A stretch of 64,000 nucleotides of DNA from Modestobacter sp. VKM Ac-2984. GTDB lineage: Bacteria; Actinomycetota; Actinomycetes; Mycobacteriales; Geodermatophilaceae. How positions within the stretch are numbered: the first letter of the stretch is position 1; each line of letters opens with the position of its first letter. The translations under genes were made by a program, and so were the position numbers. The notes beneath the pieces were generated by a model, which was given only the letters and a program-made list of their open reading frames with translations, was not told where the DNA came from and ran no database searches. The DNA is taken from contig NZ_JAPVBJ010000002.1 in NCBI RefSeq assembly GCF_026967985.1, positions 476,349-540,348 of the forward strand, in the 5' to 3' direction. Positions 7,099-16,329 of this stretch are shown here, piece after piece.

Positions 7099-10000
7099 GT
7101 GTTCGACAAGGTCCTGGTCGCCAACCGCGGTGAGATCGCCGTCCGCGCCTTCCGCGCCGCCTACGAGCTGGGTGCCGGGACGGTCGCCGTCTTCCCGCAC
7201 GAGGACCGCAACTCCGTCCACCGCCTGAAGGCCGACGAGAGCTACGAGATCGGCGAGCCGGGCCACCCGGTGCGGGCCTACCTGGACGTCGCCGAGATCG
7301 TCCGGGCCGCCCAGCGCGCCGGCGCCGACGCCGTCTACCCCGGCTACGGCTTCCTGTCGGAGAACCCCGACCTGGCCGAGGCCTGCGCCCGGGCCGGGAT
7401 CACCTTCGTCGGCCCCTCGGCGGCGGTGCTCGAGCTCACCGGGGACAAGTCCCGGGCGATCGCCGCGGCCCGCGAGGCCGGGCTGCCGGTGCTGCAGGGC
7501 ACCGACCCCAGCGACGACGTCGACACCCTGCTGGCCGCGGCGGACGCGATCGAGGGCCCGGTGTTCGTCAAGGCGGTCGCCGGGGGCGGCGGGCGCGGCA
7601 TGCGCCGGGTCGAACAGCGCGACCAGCTGCGCAGCGCGATCGAGGCGGCGATGCGGGAGGCGGAGTCGGCGTTCGGGGACGCGACGGTCTTCCTGGAGCA
7701 GGCGGTGATCGACCCCCGGCACATCGAGGTGCAGATCCTGGCCGACAGCACCGGCGACGTCATCCACCTGTACGAGCGCGACTGCTCGGTGCAGCGCCGG
7801 CACCAGAAGGTCATCGAGATCGCCCCGGCGCCGAACCTGGACCCGGCCCTGCGCGAGCGGATCTGCGCCGACGCCGTCGCCTTCGCCCGGCAGATCGGCT
7901 ACAGCTGCGCGGGCACCGTGGAGTTCCTGGTCGACCGCGAGGGCCGGCACGTCTTCATCGAGATGAACCCGCGGATCCAGGTGGAGCACACGGTGACCGA
8001 GGAGGTCACCGACGTCGACCTGGTGGGCAGCCAGCTGCGGATCGCGGCGGGGGAGACGCTCGCGGACCTGGGGCTGACCCAGGAGTCGATCGTGCTCCGC
8101 GGGGCGGCGCTGCAGACCCGGATCACCACCGAGGACCCGGCCAACGGCTTCCGCCCGGACACCGGCCGGATCACCGCCTACCGCTCACCCGGTGGCGCCG
8201 GGGTGCGGCTGGACGGTGCCGCCACCCTGGGGGCCGAGGTGGGCGCGCACTTCGACTCGATGCTGGTCAAGCTCACCTGCCGCGGCCGCACCTGGGACAT
8301 CGCGGTGGCCCGGGCCCGCCGCGCGGTGGCGGAGTTCCGGATCCGCGGGGTCTCGACGAACATCCCGTTCCTGCAGGCGGTGCTGGACGACCCGGACTTC
8401 CGGGCCGGCCGGGTGACGACGTCGTTCATCGAGGAGCGCCCCGAGCTGCTCACCGCCCGCTCCTCGGCCGACCGCGGCACCAAGATGCTCACCTACCTGG
8501 CCGACGTCACGGTCAACGCCCCGCACGGCGAGCGCCCGCACCTGGTCGACCCGGTCGAGAAGCTGCCCCGGCTGGACATGAACCTGGCGCCGCAGGACGG
8601 CTCGCGGGACCGGCTGCGCGAGCTGGGGCCGGAGCGGTTCGCCGCCGACCTGCGTGCGCAGAAGGCCCTTGCGGTCACCGACACCACCTTCCGGGACGCG
8701 CACCAGTCGCTGCTGGCCACCCGGGTGCGCACCAAGGACCTGCTGGCCGTGGCCGGGCACGTGGCGCGGGCGACCCCGCAGCTGCTGTCGATCGAGGCCT
8801 GGGGCGGGGCGACCTACGACGTCGCGCTGCGGTTCCTGCACGAGGACCCGTGGGAGCGGCTGGCCGCACTGCGCGAGGCGGTGCCGAACATCTGCCTGCA
8901 GATGCTGCTGCGCGGGCGCAACACCGTCGGCTACACCCCCTACCCGGAGCAGGTGACGACGACGTTCGTCGCCGAGGCGGCGCGCACCGGGATCGACGTC
9001 TTCCGGGTGTTCGACGCGCTCAACGACGTCGGCCAGATGCGCCCGGCGATCGACGCCGTCCGGGAGACCGGGACGGCGGTCGCCGAGGTCGCGCTCTGCT
9101 ACACCGCCGACCTCTCCGACCCGGCCGAGCGGCTCTACGACCTGGACTACTACCTGCGCCTGGCCGAGCAGATCGTCGAGGCCGGGGCGCACGTGCTGGC
9201 GATCAAGGACATGGCCGGGCTGCTCCGCCCGCCGGCGGCGGCCACCCTGGTCACCGCGCTGCGCGAGCGGTTCGACCTGCCGGTGCACCTGCACACCCAC
9301 GACACCCCCGGTGGGCAGCTGGCCACCCTGATGGCGGCCTGGCAGGCCGGGGTCGACGCCGTGGACGGCGCCAGCGCGGCGCTGGCCGGGACGACGTCGC
9401 AGCCGGCGCTGAGCAGCATCGTCGCCGCCACCGACCACACCGAGCGGGCCACCGGCCTGGACCTGGCGCGCGTCAACGACCTGGAGCCCTACTGGGAGTC
9501 GGTCCGCCGGGTCTACGCGCCCTTCGAGTCCGGGCTGCCGGCGCCGACCGGGCGGGTCTACACCCACGAGATCCCCGGCGGGCAGTTGTCCAACCTGCGC
9601 CAGCAGGCGATCGCCCTCGGGCTGGGGCAGCGGTTCGAGGAGGTCGAGGCGATGTACGCCGCGGCCGACCGGCTGCTCGGGCGGCTGGTCAAGGTCACGC
9701 CGTCGTCGAAGGTGGTCGGCGACCTGGCGCTGCAGCTGGTGGGCGCGGGGGTGGACGTCGAGGACTTCGCCGCCGACCCCGGCACGCACGACCTGCCCGA
9801 CTCGGTGGTCGGGTTCCTCCGCGGCGAGCTGGGCGACCCGCCCGGCGGCTGGCCGGAGCCGTTCCGCTCCCGCGCCCTGGAGGGACGGCGCCCGGCCGAG
9901 CCGCCGGCGGAGCTGGCGCAGGAGGACCTGGCCGGCCTGGCGGAGGATCCGCGGTCGACGCTGAACCGGCTGCTGTTCCCCGGCCCCACCAAGGAGTTCC

Positions 10001-11353: not shown

Positions 11354-14008
11354 GTGAGCGCACCGGTACGGACCACTGCACGGTCGGGGTCCGGTCACCT
11401 CCTCGCCCAGCTGTCGGCGCAGGCCCGGCGCATGCTGCAGACCGAGGCGGCCAGCGCCGGGCTGCTCGTCGTGGCCACCGCGCTGGCGCTGATCTGGGCG
11501 AACTCGCCGTGGGGCGACAGCTACGAGGCCTTCTGGCACACCGAGCTCTCCTTCGAGGTCGGCTCGACCGGCGTCGCGATGGACCTGCGGCACTGGGTCA
11601 ACGACGGCCTGATGGTGTTCTTCTTCTTCCTCATCGGCATGGAGGTGCGCCGCGAGCTGTCGATGGGGGAGCTGACCGAGCGCAGCCGGCTCTCCGTCCC
11701 GGCCCTCGGCGCGATCGCCGGGTTGGCGGTGCCGGCGGGCCTCTACCTCGCGATCAACGCCGGTGGGCCCGGTGCGCAGGGCTGGGGCATCCCGATGGCC
11801 ACCGACACCGCCTTCGTCCTCGGCGCGCTGGCGCTGGTCGGCTCCCGCTGCCCCACCCAGCTGCGGGTCTTCCTGCTGTCGCTCTCCGTCGTCGACGACA
11901 TCGGCGCGCTCACCGTCATCGCGGTCTTCTACTCCGACGACATCGACCTCCTCGCCCTCGGCGTCGCGGGGCTGTGCGTGGTCGCCTTCGCGCTGCTCAC
12001 CCGGTTGCAGGTGTGGCGCGGGCCGGCGTACTTCGCCGTCGGCGTGGTCATGTGGCTGGCGATGCACGCCTCCGGGGTGCACGCCACCATCGGCGGGGTC
12101 GTGCTGGGCCTGCTGGTCAGCGCCTACACGCCGCGCCGGCAGGAGGTGGAGTCCGCGGGCACGCTGGCCCGCGCCTTCCGGCAGGCCCCCGACGTCGCGC
12201 TGGCCCGGCGGGCGAAGCTGTCGGTGGAGCGGGCCATCTCGCCGAACGAGCGGATCGGCGCGCTGCTGGTGCCGTGGAGCGGGTACGTCGTCGTCCCGGT
12301 GTTCGCGCTGGCCAACGCGGGCGTGCAGTTCGACACCGAGCTGCTGGACCGGGCGCTCACCTCCCCGATCACCGTGGGCGTCTTCGTGGGCCTGGTCGTC
12401 GGCAAGTTCGTCGGCATCGGGCTGGCCTCGACCCTCGCCGTCCGCTTCGGCATGGGCTCGCTGCCGCCCGGGGTGACGCTGGCCGCTGTCTGGGGCGGGG
12501 CGGCGCTGTCCGGCCTGGGCTTCACCGTCTCGCTGTTCGTCGCCGACCTGGCCTTCGACGACGCGGCGCTGCGCGAGGAGGCGATGGTCGGCGTCCTCGC
12601 CGCCGGCGTCGTCGCCGCCGCGCTGGGCGCGGTCTGGTTCTGGGCGCTGGGACGGCGCTCGCCCCAGGTGGCCCGCACCGGGCCCCGGCAGCTGGACCCA
12701 CCGGTCGACCCGGCGGTCGACCACCTCCGCGGCCGGGCCGACGCGCCGCTGACCCTGGTCGAGTACGGCGACGTCGAGTGCCCGTTCTGTGGCCGCGCGA
12801 CCGGGGTGGTCGAGGAGCTGCGGCACCGGTTCGGCGACGACCTGCGGTACGTCTTCCGGCACCTGCCGCTGCCCGACGTCCACCCGCACGCCGAGCTCGC
12901 CGCCGAGGCGACCGAGGCCGCCGGCGCGCAGGGCGCCTTCTGGACGATGCACGACCGACTGTTCGCCCACCAGGACCAACTGGAGGCCGACCAACTGCTC
13001 GACCACGCCGCCGCGCTCGGGCTGGACCTCGGCCGGTTCGCCGCGGAGCTGGGCAGCGGTGCCCACGCGGCCCGGGTGCGCGCCGACGTGGTCGGCGCCG
13101 AGGCCAGCGGCGTGCGGGGCACCCCGACGTTCTTCGTCAACGGCGTCGGGCACGACGGCCCGACCACCACCGAGGCGCTCGCCGCCGCGCTGGTCGCCTC
13201 CGACCCGCGCGGTCCCGGCCACGGCAGCCTGCTGCCGGTGACCGAGCCGGTCGCCCCGGCTCGGTCCTCGGTCGCCCTCTCCCCGGCCGCCGAGCTGCCG
13301 GCGATCAGCGCGCTGCCCGGCGAGCGCCTGGCCGAGACGCCGGACGACGGGGCCTCCCCGCGACTGTCCGAGGCGCACATCGCCGTGCTGCGGCGGGTGG
13401 GGCGCCGCCAGCGCACCGTCCGCGGGCAGGTGCTGCTGCGCTCGGGGCAGGCGGAGTTCGACTTCTTCGCCGTCCTCGCCGGCACCGTGGCGGTGGTCGA
13501 GGGGCCGCTGGACGGCGGGCCGGACGGCGGCAAGCGGGTCGTGGCCGTCCACGGGCCGGGCCGGTTCCTGGGTGGGCTGAACATGCTGGCCGGGCAGCGG
13601 CCGGTGCGATCGCTGGTGGCCGCCGAGGACGGCGAGGTGCTGGTGCTCAGCCTGGAGCAGCTGCGCGCCGTCTTCACCCGGGACCGCGGCCTGGCCGACG
13701 TCATCACCCGGTCGTTCCTGCTGCGCCGGGCGATGCTCATCGGGCAGGCGAGCGGGCTGCGGGTGGTCGGCGACCGGCGCTGGCCGGCCAGCACCGAGCT
13801 GCGGGCCCAGCTGGCCGAGGACGGCGTGCCGCACACCTGGTTGGACCCGGCCGAGGACGCCGCAGCCGCCCGGCTGCTCGCCGAGATCGGCGGCGAGGAG
13901 GCGACCTCGCCGGTCGTGCTCACCCCCGACGGCCGGGTGCTGGTCGAGCCGACCCGCGAGGAGCTGGCCCGCTTCGCCGGCGCCTCGCGCGACCTGACGA
14001 CGACATGA
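11354..14008 (+). CDS. nhaA: Na+/H+ antiporter NhaA fused to DsbA, CNB-like and glutaredoxin-like domains
   Basis: 884-aa multidomain protein. Residues ~20-432 are a full NhaA antiporter, with the ion-binding pair D181-D182 (VVDDIGAL), MATDTAF and GMEVRREL. Residues ~455-620 are a DsbA/thioredoxin-fold domain with active-site CPFC (476-479) and cis-proline in GTPTFF; NhaA-DsbA fusions are known in actinobacteria. Residues ~672-797 resemble a cyclic-nucleotide-binding domain (GPGRFLGGLNMLAGQRP) but lack the usual FGE motif, so nucleotide binding is doubtful. Residues ~803-876 resemble the small glutaredoxin-like linker found in CNB-thioredoxin reductases, without CxxC. The oxidoreductase half of such enzymes is absent. 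The GTG at 11354 follows AGGAAG; the stop overlaps the next gene (ATGA). Periplasmic versus cytoplasmic placement of the tail is unresolved. Confidence 0.9.
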   Translation: MSAPVRTTARSGSGHLLAQLSAQARRMLQTEAASAGLLVVATALALIWANSPWGDSYEAFWHTELSFEVGSTGVAMDLRHWVNDGLMVFFFFLIGMEVRRELSMGELTERSRLSVPALGAIAGLAVPAGLYLAINAGGPGAQGWGIPMATDTAFVLGALALVGSRCPTQLRVFLLSLSVVDDIGALTVIAVFYSDDIDLLALGVAGLCVVAFALLTRLQVWRGPAYFAVGVVMWLAMHASGVHATIGGVVLGLLVSAYTPRRQEVESAGTLARAFRQAPDVALARRAKLSVERAISPNERIGALLVPWSGYVVVPVFALANAGVQFDTELLDRALTSPITVGVFVGLVVGKFVGIGLASTLAVRFGMGSLPPGVTLAAVWGGAALSGLGFTVSLFVADLAFDDAALREEAMVGVLAAGVVAAALGAVWFWALGRRSPQVARTGPRQLDPPVDPAVDHLRGRADAPLTLVEYGDVECPFCGRATGVVEELRHRFGDDLRYVFRHLPLPDVHPHAELAAEATEAAGAQGAFWTMHDRLFAHQDQLEADQLLDHAAALGLDLGRFAAELGSGAHAARVRADVVGAEASGVRGTPTFFVNGVGHDGPTTTEALAAALVASDPRGPGHGSLLPVTEPVAPARSSVALSPAAELPAISALPGERLAETPDDGASPRLSEAHIAVLRRVGRRQRTVRGQVLLRSGQAEFDFFAVLAGTVAVVEGPLDGGPDGGKRVVAVHGPGRFLGGLNMLAGQRPVRSLVAAEDGEVLVLSLEQLRAVFTRDRGLADVITRSFLLRRAMLIGQASGLRVVGDRRWPASTELRAQLAEDGVPHTWLDPAEDAAAARLLAEIGGEEATSPVVLTPDGRVLVEPTREELARFAGASRDLTTT

Positions 14009-15003
14009 GGTCGCTCGACGAGGAGCTCACCGACCTGGCCGACCACTATCGGTGGTTCGCGCAGGTGGAGGCCGCCCCGCTCTCCCCTCGCTACGCCGAG
14101 CTCGCCGCCGCGGTCGCCGAGGACGCCGACGTCCTGGCCTTCCTCGGCACCCTGCCGCGACCCAAGCGACAGGCGAACCTGCTGCTCGGGGCCCTGCAGT
14201 ACCTGCACGTCGGCCCGCCGGCCGACGGCGTCGAGCTGCACCGGTGGGTCACCGGCGACGCAGACCGGCTGCGGGAGACGATGCTCGCCCGGGCCACCCA
14301 GACCAACGAGGCCGCCCGCTGCGCGGCCCTGCTGCCGGTGCTGGCCGGCCTGCCGGGGCCGCTGGCGCTGATCGAGGTCGGCGCGTCGGCGGGGCTGTGC
14401 CTCTACCTAGACCGGTACGGCTACGAGTACTCCGACGGCGTCCGGGTCGGACTCCCCAGCCCGGTGCAGCTGAGCTGCGAGGTCACCGGAACCGGGCTGG
14501 TCCCGGGCGGGATGCCGGAGGTGGTGCGGCGGGCCGGGATCGACCTGAATCCGCTCGACCCCGCCGACCCCGACGACGTCGCCTGGCTGCAGGCGCTGAT
14601 CTGGCCGGGCATGGAGGAGCGACGCGACCGGCTCACCGCCGCGGCCGCGATCGCCGCCCGGGAGCCGGCCGAGATCCGGCGGGGCGACCTGGTCGAGGAG
14701 CTGCCCGGGCTGGTCGCCGCGATGCCGGTCGAGGCCACCGTCGTCGTCTTCCACACCGCGGTGCTGGCCTACCTGCCGGCGCCGGCGAAGGAGGCGTTCG
14801 CCGAGCTGGTCACCGGGCTGCCGGTGCGCTGGGTCTCCCAGGAGGGGGTGGGCGTGCTGCCCGCCGTCCGCGATCGGCTGCCCGAGCCACCGGCGCCCGA
14901 CGAGGTCCGGTTCCTGCTGGCCCTGGACGGCGAGCCGCTGGCGTACACCGCCGCCCACGGCGGCCGGATCGACTGGCTCCCCGCCGCCGCCCTCAGGCGT
15001 TGA
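14005..15003 (+). CDS. DUF2332 family protein
   Basis: 332-aa DUF2332 protein of unknown function. The central LIEVGASAGLCLYLDRYGYEY segment resembles a Rossmann-like or SAM-binding glycine motif, and the family is sometimes suspected to be methyltransferase-related, but no activity follows from this. The N-terminus (DHYRWFAQVEAAPLSPRYAELA) and the central LARATQTNEAARCA are typical family segments. Its ATG overlaps the stop of the NhaA fusion (ATGA), so the two are probably translated together, which may or may not mean shared function. It ends in a long inverted repeat. Confidence 0.85.
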   Translation: MRSLDEELTDLADHYRWFAQVEAAPLSPRYAELAAAVAEDADVLAFLGTLPRPKRQANLLLGALQYLHVGPPADGVELHRWVTGDADRLRETMLARATQTNEAARCAALLPVLAGLPGPLALIEVGASAGLCLYLDRYGYEYSDGVRVGLPSPVQLSCEVTGTGLVPGGMPEVVRRAGIDLNPLDPADPDDVAWLQALIWPGMEERRDRLTAAAAIAAREPAEIRRGDLVEELPGLVAAMPVEATVVVFHTAVLAYLPAPAKEAFAELVTGLPVRWVSQEGVGVLPAVRDRLPEPPAPDEVRFLLALDGEPLAYTAAHGGRIDWLPAAALRR

Positions 15004-15066: not shown

Positions 15067-16329
15067 TCAGGCCGACCAGGTGGTGTTCGGCGGGCGGCGG
15101 TGGTCGATGGTGTGCGGCACGAAGAAGGACAGGTCGTCGGTGATCAGCCCGTCGGACTCCCGGATGCCCAGGCCCGCGGCCTCGCCGTCGACCACCCAGG
15201 TGCCGAGCACCGGGTGGTGCGGGCCGTCAGGGCCGGCGAAGTCGGGCAGCGCGCACAGCTGCTGCACGACCCAGCCCTCCGCGCCGTACTTCCCGCCGAG
15301 CGAGGCCAGCGGCTCGCCGCCGGGGGCGAACAGCTCGACGTTGTTGCCCTCCCGGCCGAACAGCGGCTTGCGGGCGTAGCCGGTCTGCTCCAACTCGGCC
15401 GCCCGCGGGTCGTCGGCGAAGTAGGCGCGGAGCAGGTGCTTGCCGATCACCGGGTCGTCGGCGTAGCGCTGCCACAGCACCGGCAGCAGCCCCTTGTTCG
15501 ACCACAGCATCTTCCAGATCGGCTCGATCCAGGTCGTGCCGTCGGGGGTCCACAGGTCGGCGATCACCGAGGGGCCGTACGCGTCCTCGAGCAGCCACTC
15601 CCAGGGGTAGAGCTTGAAGACGACGTCGATCCGGTTGCCCTTGGGGTCGTAGAACCGGGCGTCGCCGGTGTCCAGGGCCAGCTCCTCGGTGGTCATCACC
15701 ACCGTCTCGTAGCCGGCCCGCTGGACGGTGTCCGCCAGGTAGGCCACCGTCATCCAGTCCTCACCGCTGCGGTCGCCGTTGGTCCAGGCGAGGTGCACCC
15801 GGGGACGGCGGCCGTGCTCGGCCTCCCAGCGTGACAGGTTGCGCCGCCAGGCCTCGACCAGCCGGTCGTCGAGCTGGTTCCACTGGTCGCGGCCCTGGCC
15901 GGTCTCCAGGTGCCAGGCCCACTGCACGACCGCGGCCTCGACCAGCGAGGTCGGGGTGTCGGCGTTGAACTCCAGCAGCCGGGGCGCGCCCTCGCCGTCC
16001 CACCACAGGTCGAAGCGGCCGTAGACGCTGGGCGGCTCGGACTCCCAGGTGGCCTTGATGACCTCGCGGGCGTCGCGCGGGATCCGCATCCGGTCCAGCA
16101 GCCGCTCGTCGGCCAGCGCCACGTCACCGGCCTCCACGCAGGCGGCGAAGAGCTGGTCGGTCACGTGGGCCAGGTGGTCGATCTCGGCGGAGGTGAAGTC
16201 GTAGAAGACGTCCTCGCGCCAGTACGACCGGGTCTCGCCGCCCGGGACGGTCGTCTTGTTGTAGACCAGCCCCTGGCTCTCGATCTCGGCCTCCCAGCCG
16301 CGCCGGGCCGTGCCGTAGAGACGCCTCAT
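15067..16329 (-). CDS. Glutathionylspermidine synthase-like ATP-grasp protein (YgiC family)
   Basis: 420-aa ATP-grasp amide ligase-like protein of the glutathionylspermidine synthase/YgiC family. Family-type segments include WREDVFYDFTSAEIDHL, YGRFDLWWDGEGAPRLLEFNADTPTSLVEA and KPLFGREGNNVEL, which cover the substrate and ATP sites. It lacks the amidase domain of true glutathionylspermidine synthetase. Actinobacteria lack glutathionylspermidine, so the substrate is unknown. The ATG at 16329 overlaps the TGA of the upstream lipoprotein gene (ATGA). The pair matches the ygiB-ygiC arrangement known from enterobacteria. Confidence 0.88.
   Translation of the reverse strand: MRRLYGTARRGWEAEIESQGLVYNKTTVPGGETRSYWREDVFYDFTSAEIDHLAHVTDQLFAACVEAGDVALADERLLDRMRIPRDAREVIKATWESEPPSVYGRFDLWWDGEGAPRLLEFNADTPTSLVEAAVVQWAWHLETGQGRDQWNQLDDRLVEAWRRNLSRWEAEHGRRPRVHLAWTNGDRSGEDWMTVAYLADTVQRAGYETVVMTTEELALDTGDARFYDPKGNRIDVVFKLYPWEWLLEDAYGPSVIADLWTPDGTTWIEPIWKMLWSNKGLLPVLWQRYADDPVIGKHLLRAYFADDPRAAELEQTGYARKPLFGREGNNVELFAPGGEPLASLGGKYGAEGWVVQQLCALPDFAGPDGPHHPVLGTWVVDGEAAGLGIRESDGLITDDLSFFVPHTIDHRRPPNTTWSA

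Follow-up and report, generated by a model that had tools for sequence, protein, structure and literature searches.

A four-domain protein encoded in the genome of Modestobacter sp. VKM Ac-2984 joins a complete NhaA-type Na+/H+ antiporter to a DsbA-like domain and to a C-terminal tail homologous to the front of a family of redox flavoproteins. The window, i.e. the whole stretch of 64,000 nt that was analysed, belongs to contig NZ_JAPVBJ010000002.1, and coordinates are positions of this window. NhaA-DsbA fusions are already known as a kind, as is the system that combines zf-UBP, cyclic-nucleotide-binding (CNB) and thioredoxin reductase-like (TrxR) domains; the four-part combination is a new variant. 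No description of it was found in the open-access papers searched, a coverage outside which subscription papers mostly lie. The fusion suggests that, in these actinobacteria, the control of sodium and pH is coupled to the thiol state of the cell. The favoured reading, in which a cytosolic thiol-redox arm would regulate antiport of the NhaA family, is in our judgement about as likely as not. To our knowledge, the function of the CNB-mycoredoxin (Mrx) redox module is not settled so far. By joining it to an ion transporter, the fusion gives this module a measurable output, Na+/H+ exchange. If right, the reading would show how mycothiol-using bacteria couple stress on their thiols to the handling of sodium and pH.

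Domains of the fusion protein

The 884 codons of the gene are open without a stop, and the GTG start is preceded by AGGA ending 7 bases upstream. Pfam and NCBIfam matches on this frame bear out the four domains and the order proposed in an earlier note on this DNA: complete NhaA with D181-D182, DsbA-like domain with CPFC, CNB-like domain and an 87-residue C-terminal domain. Positions are given in Table 1.

Table 1. Features of the fusion gene and of its downstream neighbour
Feature	Position	Strand	Details and basis
NhaA-DsbA-CNB-mycoredoxin-like fusion gene	11354..14008	+	884 aa, GTG start, TGA stop; Pfam/NCBIfam and family survey
NhaA Na+/H+ antiporter domain	11429..12637	+	residues 26-428; Pfam and alignment with E. 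coli NhaA structure
D181-D182, counterpart of the Asp pair in E. coli NhaA	11894..11899	+	structure-based alignment
DsbA-like thioredoxin-fold domain	12719..13192	+	residues 456-613; Pfam, structure model, Foldseek
CPFC active-site motif	12779..12790	+	residues 476-479; alignment of 33 proteins
CNB-like domain with long C-terminal helix	13334..13738	+	residues 661-795; Pfam core 690-776, model
Cysteine-less mycoredoxin-fold domain	13745..14005	+	residues 798-884; NCBIfam, model, structure comparison
DUF2332 gene	14005..15003	+	PF10094, E 2e-75; start overlaps the fusion stop

Judged by its profile matches and alignments, the membrane half is a member of the NhaA Na+/H+ antiporter family. Na_H_antiport_1 (PF06965) matches with an E-value of 8.4e-136 and 453 bits (cut-off 23.5) over positions 2-373 of the 374 of the profile, and TIGR00773 with 344 bits (cut-off 254). 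This part aligns end to end with E. coli NhaA structures, save for an insert at 256-292. D181-D182 is placed on the pair D163-D164 of the E. coli protein. The motifs ATDTAF, VVDDIG and VVGKFVGI also align, with retention of the Thr-Asp of TM IV, the Asp pair and the Lys of TM X, the ion-site residues of E. coli NhaA. Where TM IX begins, the pH-sensor residues of the E. coli enzyme are absent: LEHVLHPW aligns with IGALLVPW in the fusion. These residues are a trait of the E. coli enzyme and do not define the family; therefore, the NhaA membership of the fusion stands.

E. coli NhaA has both termini in the cytosol. Because of this topology and of the full-length alignment, the parts located after about residue 430, namely the DsbA, CNB and Mrx domains, should be cytosolic. 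In the predicted structure (monomer fragment, pTM 0.49), the mutual arrangement of the domains is not fixed by the model.

The DsbA-like domain is matched by Thioredoxin_4 (residues 456-613, E 3.9e-20) and by DSBA (467-613, E 5.1e-16). Its predicted structure has helices inserted between strands, and Foldseek matches are BdbD, TsdA and DsbA. A GTPTFF motif is present in the fusion protein. CPFC and the loop proline do not vary among the 33 proteins compared, and the CPFC cysteines are the only ones common to all of them. On this alignment, the redox-active cysteine pair of the fusion is that of the DsbA domain. Since its cytosolic side is inferred from NhaA topology, this domain is presumably not a catalyst of extracytoplasmic folding.

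The CNB-like domain matches cNMP_binding (PF00027) at 690-776 with an E-value of 2.8e-10. Structure matches are Crp-type, 5h5o and MloK1, and a 22-residue C-terminal helix (778-799) is predicted. The phosphate-binding cassette of such domains has a Glu and an Arg. The Arg is absent in all 27 aligned fusion tails and the Glu is replaced by Gly in 14 of them, that of the window included. Because of these absences, the domain, with its degenerate phosphate pocket, is not classed as a cyclic-nucleotide receptor. The earlier description of the domain as lacking FGE holds for the window, which has RFLGGL, and for 13 of the 26 other aligned tails; in the remaining 13 the sequence is (F)LGEL or FVGEL. 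Gating of the antiporter by cAMP or cGMP through this domain would agree with the CNB fold and the Pfam match, and one class III cyclase match over the cut-off is present in the window's genome (E 4.7e-9), but the loss of the phosphate-position Arg throughout and of the Glu in about half of the tails makes it very improbable. In the window's clade, the CNB domain sits on a long branch (0.88) of a tree built from 55 CNB-Mrx modules and could be degenerating.

The last domain is matched by the NCBIfam mycoredoxin model TIGR02200 weakly (812-869; E 2.8e-4, 21 bits for a cut-off of 89.5). It shares the fold and the loop (cis) proline of Mycoredoxin-1 (Mrx1, 2lqo) but the catalytic cysteines are missing, hence the name mycoredoxin-like. 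The whole tail has no conserved cysteine among the 33 proteins, a single stray one being found in the CNB/linker part of 4. Thus, the CNB-Mrx tail, which had been proposed as the sensor, cannot alone sense thiols and was rejected in that role.

Distribution, integrity and flanks of the four-part gene

The fusion is not rare, as had been supposed. The whole-length gene occurs in at least 56 of the 112 family genomes, far beyond chance. Eight candidates per genome were scored in this search, two in the class search and seven in the class search with the tail profile, so that counts are lower bounds. By genus, the gene is found in 19/23 genomes of Modestobacter, 6/23 of g2, 8/16 of g3, 22/26 of g4 and 1/1 of g12, and in none of the other seven genera of the family among the matches listed. 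The four-part form spans these five genera down to about 50% identity. One genome (G086) has a second copy. Outside the family, the whole-length form is found in G275, the sole case besides the window's genome among the matches listed for 394 class genomes, and also in Actinophytocola xinjiangensis.

NhaA-DsbA proteins without the tail are present in at least 80 of the 394 class genomes, in line with the earlier statement that such fusions are known in actinobacteria. These NhaA-Thioredoxin_4 proteins have the same NhaA and C-terminal DsbA-like domain, with about 46-57% identity, but no CNB and mycoredoxin-like tail in the match. In an NhaA-DsbA tree built with a quick method, three changes separate two- and four-domain forms. 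One fusion followed by losses and several fusions are both possible origins.

Three interrupted relatives, two with the gene in pieces (G017, G032) and one with a single internal TAA (G038), could recall an artefact in which an assembly error or a frameshift has merged two genes. The frame is uninterrupted in the other 53 of the 56 genomes, four named Modestobacter assemblies included, and an artefact is therefore ruled out for practical purposes. A stop near residue 640 in homologues had been named as the mark of such a junction; a break there, at residue 644, is seen in G032 only and the other 55 are unbroken at this place.

Genes of the neighbourhood are predictions of a simple codon-usage caller, not annotation. 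In the window, the fusion stop and the DUF2332 start overlap as ATGA (14005-14008), as expected from the co-translation proposed earlier. The synteny extends to 12 of the 19 same-genus loci, one of which (L013) has a shortened DUF2332 match, and to none of the loci of other genera examined, with flanks that measured at least about 1.5 kb. DUF2332 was thus rejected as a general partner. Beside the fusion of one close relative, the DUF2332 gene looks shortened, with 119 aa called (L004 from 7652; L013 from 4152). A glutathionylspermidine synthase-like gene (PF03738, E 3e-129; 15067-16329, minus strand) is convergent with the fusion and DUF2332 in the window, and its end recurs downstream in 12 of the 19 same-genus loci. 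In 10 of the 13 g4-type loci examined, an MFS transporter encoded directly upstream of the fusion ends in a tail with a CxxC (L181:1510-3108; L071, L073-L080). This motif is mostly EECxHCGV, and the DsbA domain might have such a tail as its substrate in the cytosol.

Kin of the tail and antiporters linked to the redox system

Searches of family and class genomes with a profile of the tail gave, among the matches listed, two settings besides the fusion: CNB-Mrx-TrxR, and REC before Mrx-TrxR, the latter for the Mrx part alone. In the tree of 55 modules, 27 NhaA-linked and 28 TrxR-linked rows are split by one branch (support 89/80). These searches and the tree bear out the kinship with CNB-thioredoxin-reductase proteins put forward in the earlier note, and on this basis the tail of the fusion and the front of the CNB-Mrx-TrxR flavoproteins are homologous. 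The CNB and the cysteine-less mycoredoxin-like domain have the same order in both. In the flavoproteins, however, the module precedes a TrxR-like half without CxxC, whereas in the fusion it follows the antiporter and DsbA; the flavoprotein half is absent, the protein ending at residue 884. All three TrxR halves scanned match thioredoxin-disulfide reductase models with scores under the cut-off. With an anchored test, the CxxC of thioredoxin reductases was found at the expected place in 0/39 Mrx-TrxR proteins, L188 having one further on. Direct reduction of CPFC by Mrx-TrxR is thus uncertain. At two loci (L189:4998-6329 and L190:4853-6259), neither CNB nor REC was found in front of Mrx-TrxR; both have a DnaJ-like gene.

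Burroughs, Iyer and Aravind reportedly predicted in 2011 a bacterial zf-UBP "cyclic nucleotide-dependent redox signalling system" that includes CNB-Mrx-TrxR. Among 36 CNB-Mrx-TrxR loci, chosen because they matched the tail profile and hence not at random, zf-UBP lies within 0.6 kb in 23 (tblastn), thioredoxin within 0.5 kb in 15 and ClpB within 5 kb in 17. At L172, the neighbours DnaJ, ClpB and thioredoxin were identified with Pfam and NCBIfam.

The fusion is itself linked to Mrx-TrxR. In at least 8 of the 22 g4 fusions (G041, G042, G043, G045, G050, G056, G064, G065), an Mrx-TrxR gene follows directly, with an overlap of 4 bases in the four g4 loci read. A REC domain stands in front of Mrx-TrxR in 7 of these 8 cases, G064 being outside the comparison. 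Among the matches listed, 14 of the 22 g4 fusions and every g1-g3 fusion have no adjoining Mrx-TrxR. At L181, a CNB-histidine kinase gene (7498-8955) comes after REC-Mrx-TrxR, and an MFS transporter gene before the fusion. With a CNB-histidine kinase after REC-Mrx-TrxR, this operon could encode a two-component redox system.

At the level of genomes, an Mrx-TrxR match is found in at least 51 of the 56 fusion-bearing and at least 28 of the 56 fusion-less family genomes (Fisher 2.5e-6), a link that rests on the E threshold, the fusion-less G018 being borderline (2.4e-41). Stratification by genus gives p 0.006, a value that ignores kinship within genera. At E 1e-40 and among the matches listed, the window's genome gave no Mrx-TrxR, and this partner was accordingly rejected there; the fusion-bearing G097 (67% complete), G101, G103 and G044 gave none either. 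The partner is therefore not essential. Besides the fusion, the tail profile matches in the window's genome, among the matches listed, only a 243-aa frame, through its CNB part.

The two halves also occur close to each other as separate genes. Of the 17 class genomes having both, 3 carry unfused NhaA-DsbA no more than 6 kb away from CNB-Mrx-TrxR (G439, at 51 bases; G234; G181), compared with 0.055 expected (P 2.6e-5; the 6-kb threshold was chosen after the cases had been seen). In G181, a 533-aa protein with a PF12768 beta-propeller just below cut-off is encoded between the two (L153:6230-7828). Such separate neighbours in other families (L152, L153, L154) would suit a fusion that serves co-expression only, its parts being useful in the same stress and not mechanically coupled. 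We hold this to be quite unlikely, since the fused form has been kept, uninterrupted in nearly all genomes, across genera as distant as those described above.

A second antiporter family shows a related arrangement. In 12 loci chosen for frame length, a PF00999 (NhaP-type) antiporter with a C-terminal zf-UBP is called as one gene of 618-628 aa in 10; in L204 the PF00999 match and zf-UBP share an open frame without a called gene, which brings the count to 11 of 12, and L200 has neither. Both Pfam domains were confirmed in 2/2 proteins scanned. The zf-UBP domains of these antiporters are 53-76% identical to those beside CNB-Mrx-TrxR. As in the fusion, a Na+/H+ antiporter carries a C-terminal piece like one of the zf-UBP redox system, but the antiporter family is unrelated to NhaA and the attached piece is different. 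A chance link is less likely because this second, unrelated family carries zf-UBP of the same kind. These antiporters, of about 625 aa, were seen in several actinobacterial families (L193-L199 and L201-L204).

The same data bear on a reading in which NhaA is a mere anchor: DsbA would be a membrane-tethered cytosolic disulfide reductase or chaperone, the CNB-Mrx tail would dock and antiport would stay ungated. The invariant CPFC and loop proline agree with it, as does the frequent location of the tail's kin beside thioredoxin and ClpB, i.e. protein-thiol repair. Retention of the ion-site residues argues against it, and the antiporters fused to zf-UBP point to a transport function. Such an anchor therefore seems rather unlikely to us.

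Proposed control of antiport by thiols

In the thiol-redox reading of the fusion, oxidant or electrophile stress in the cytosol would alter the state of CPFC, the occupancy of the Mrx groove, or both. Mycothiol or a mycothiol adduct would be the natural candidate for the groove ligand. The CNB domain with its long helix would relay the signal to the NhaA dimer and antiport would be switched on, Na+ moving out and H+ in. The lowered cytosolic pH might then damp thiol damage, as it does in Kef systems. Where an Mrx-TrxR flavoprotein is present, it would probably be the partner by which the arm is read or reset; because five fusion-bearing genomes have no match to it, the arm must also be capable of functioning in its absence. 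Such gating, by redox state or by a ligand, had already been suggested in the earlier note; it is plausible, and the genomic data lend it support.

KefB and KefC are K+/H+ antiporters with ancillary oxidoreductases, gated by thiols or thiol adducts (glutathione). By analogy, the working principle proposed here, cation/proton exchange gated by thiols or their adducts, would be alike, but Kef has a different transporter family, a different regulatory domain and uses glutathione. A broader and rather doubtful proposal is that actinobacteria possess a general route from thiol state to Na+/H+ exchange, built on CNB with cysteine-less Mrx and on zf-UBP, with NhaA-DsbA-CNB-Mrx and NhaP-zf-UBP as outputs. 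The Mrx domain would be the receptor of mycothiol or its adducts, and the fusion would be the mycothiol-based equivalent of Kef, which is gated by glutathione.

PF00999 antiporter genes are also seen as neighbours: one lies 1.7 kb from CNB-Mrx-TrxR in L164, one of the loci examined, and in Actinophytocola another comes immediately after the four-part gene. A single zf-UBP match is present in the genome of the window, on a different contig and apparently in a small gene that stands alone (L192, about 1500-1710; G000:C4:92247-92432).
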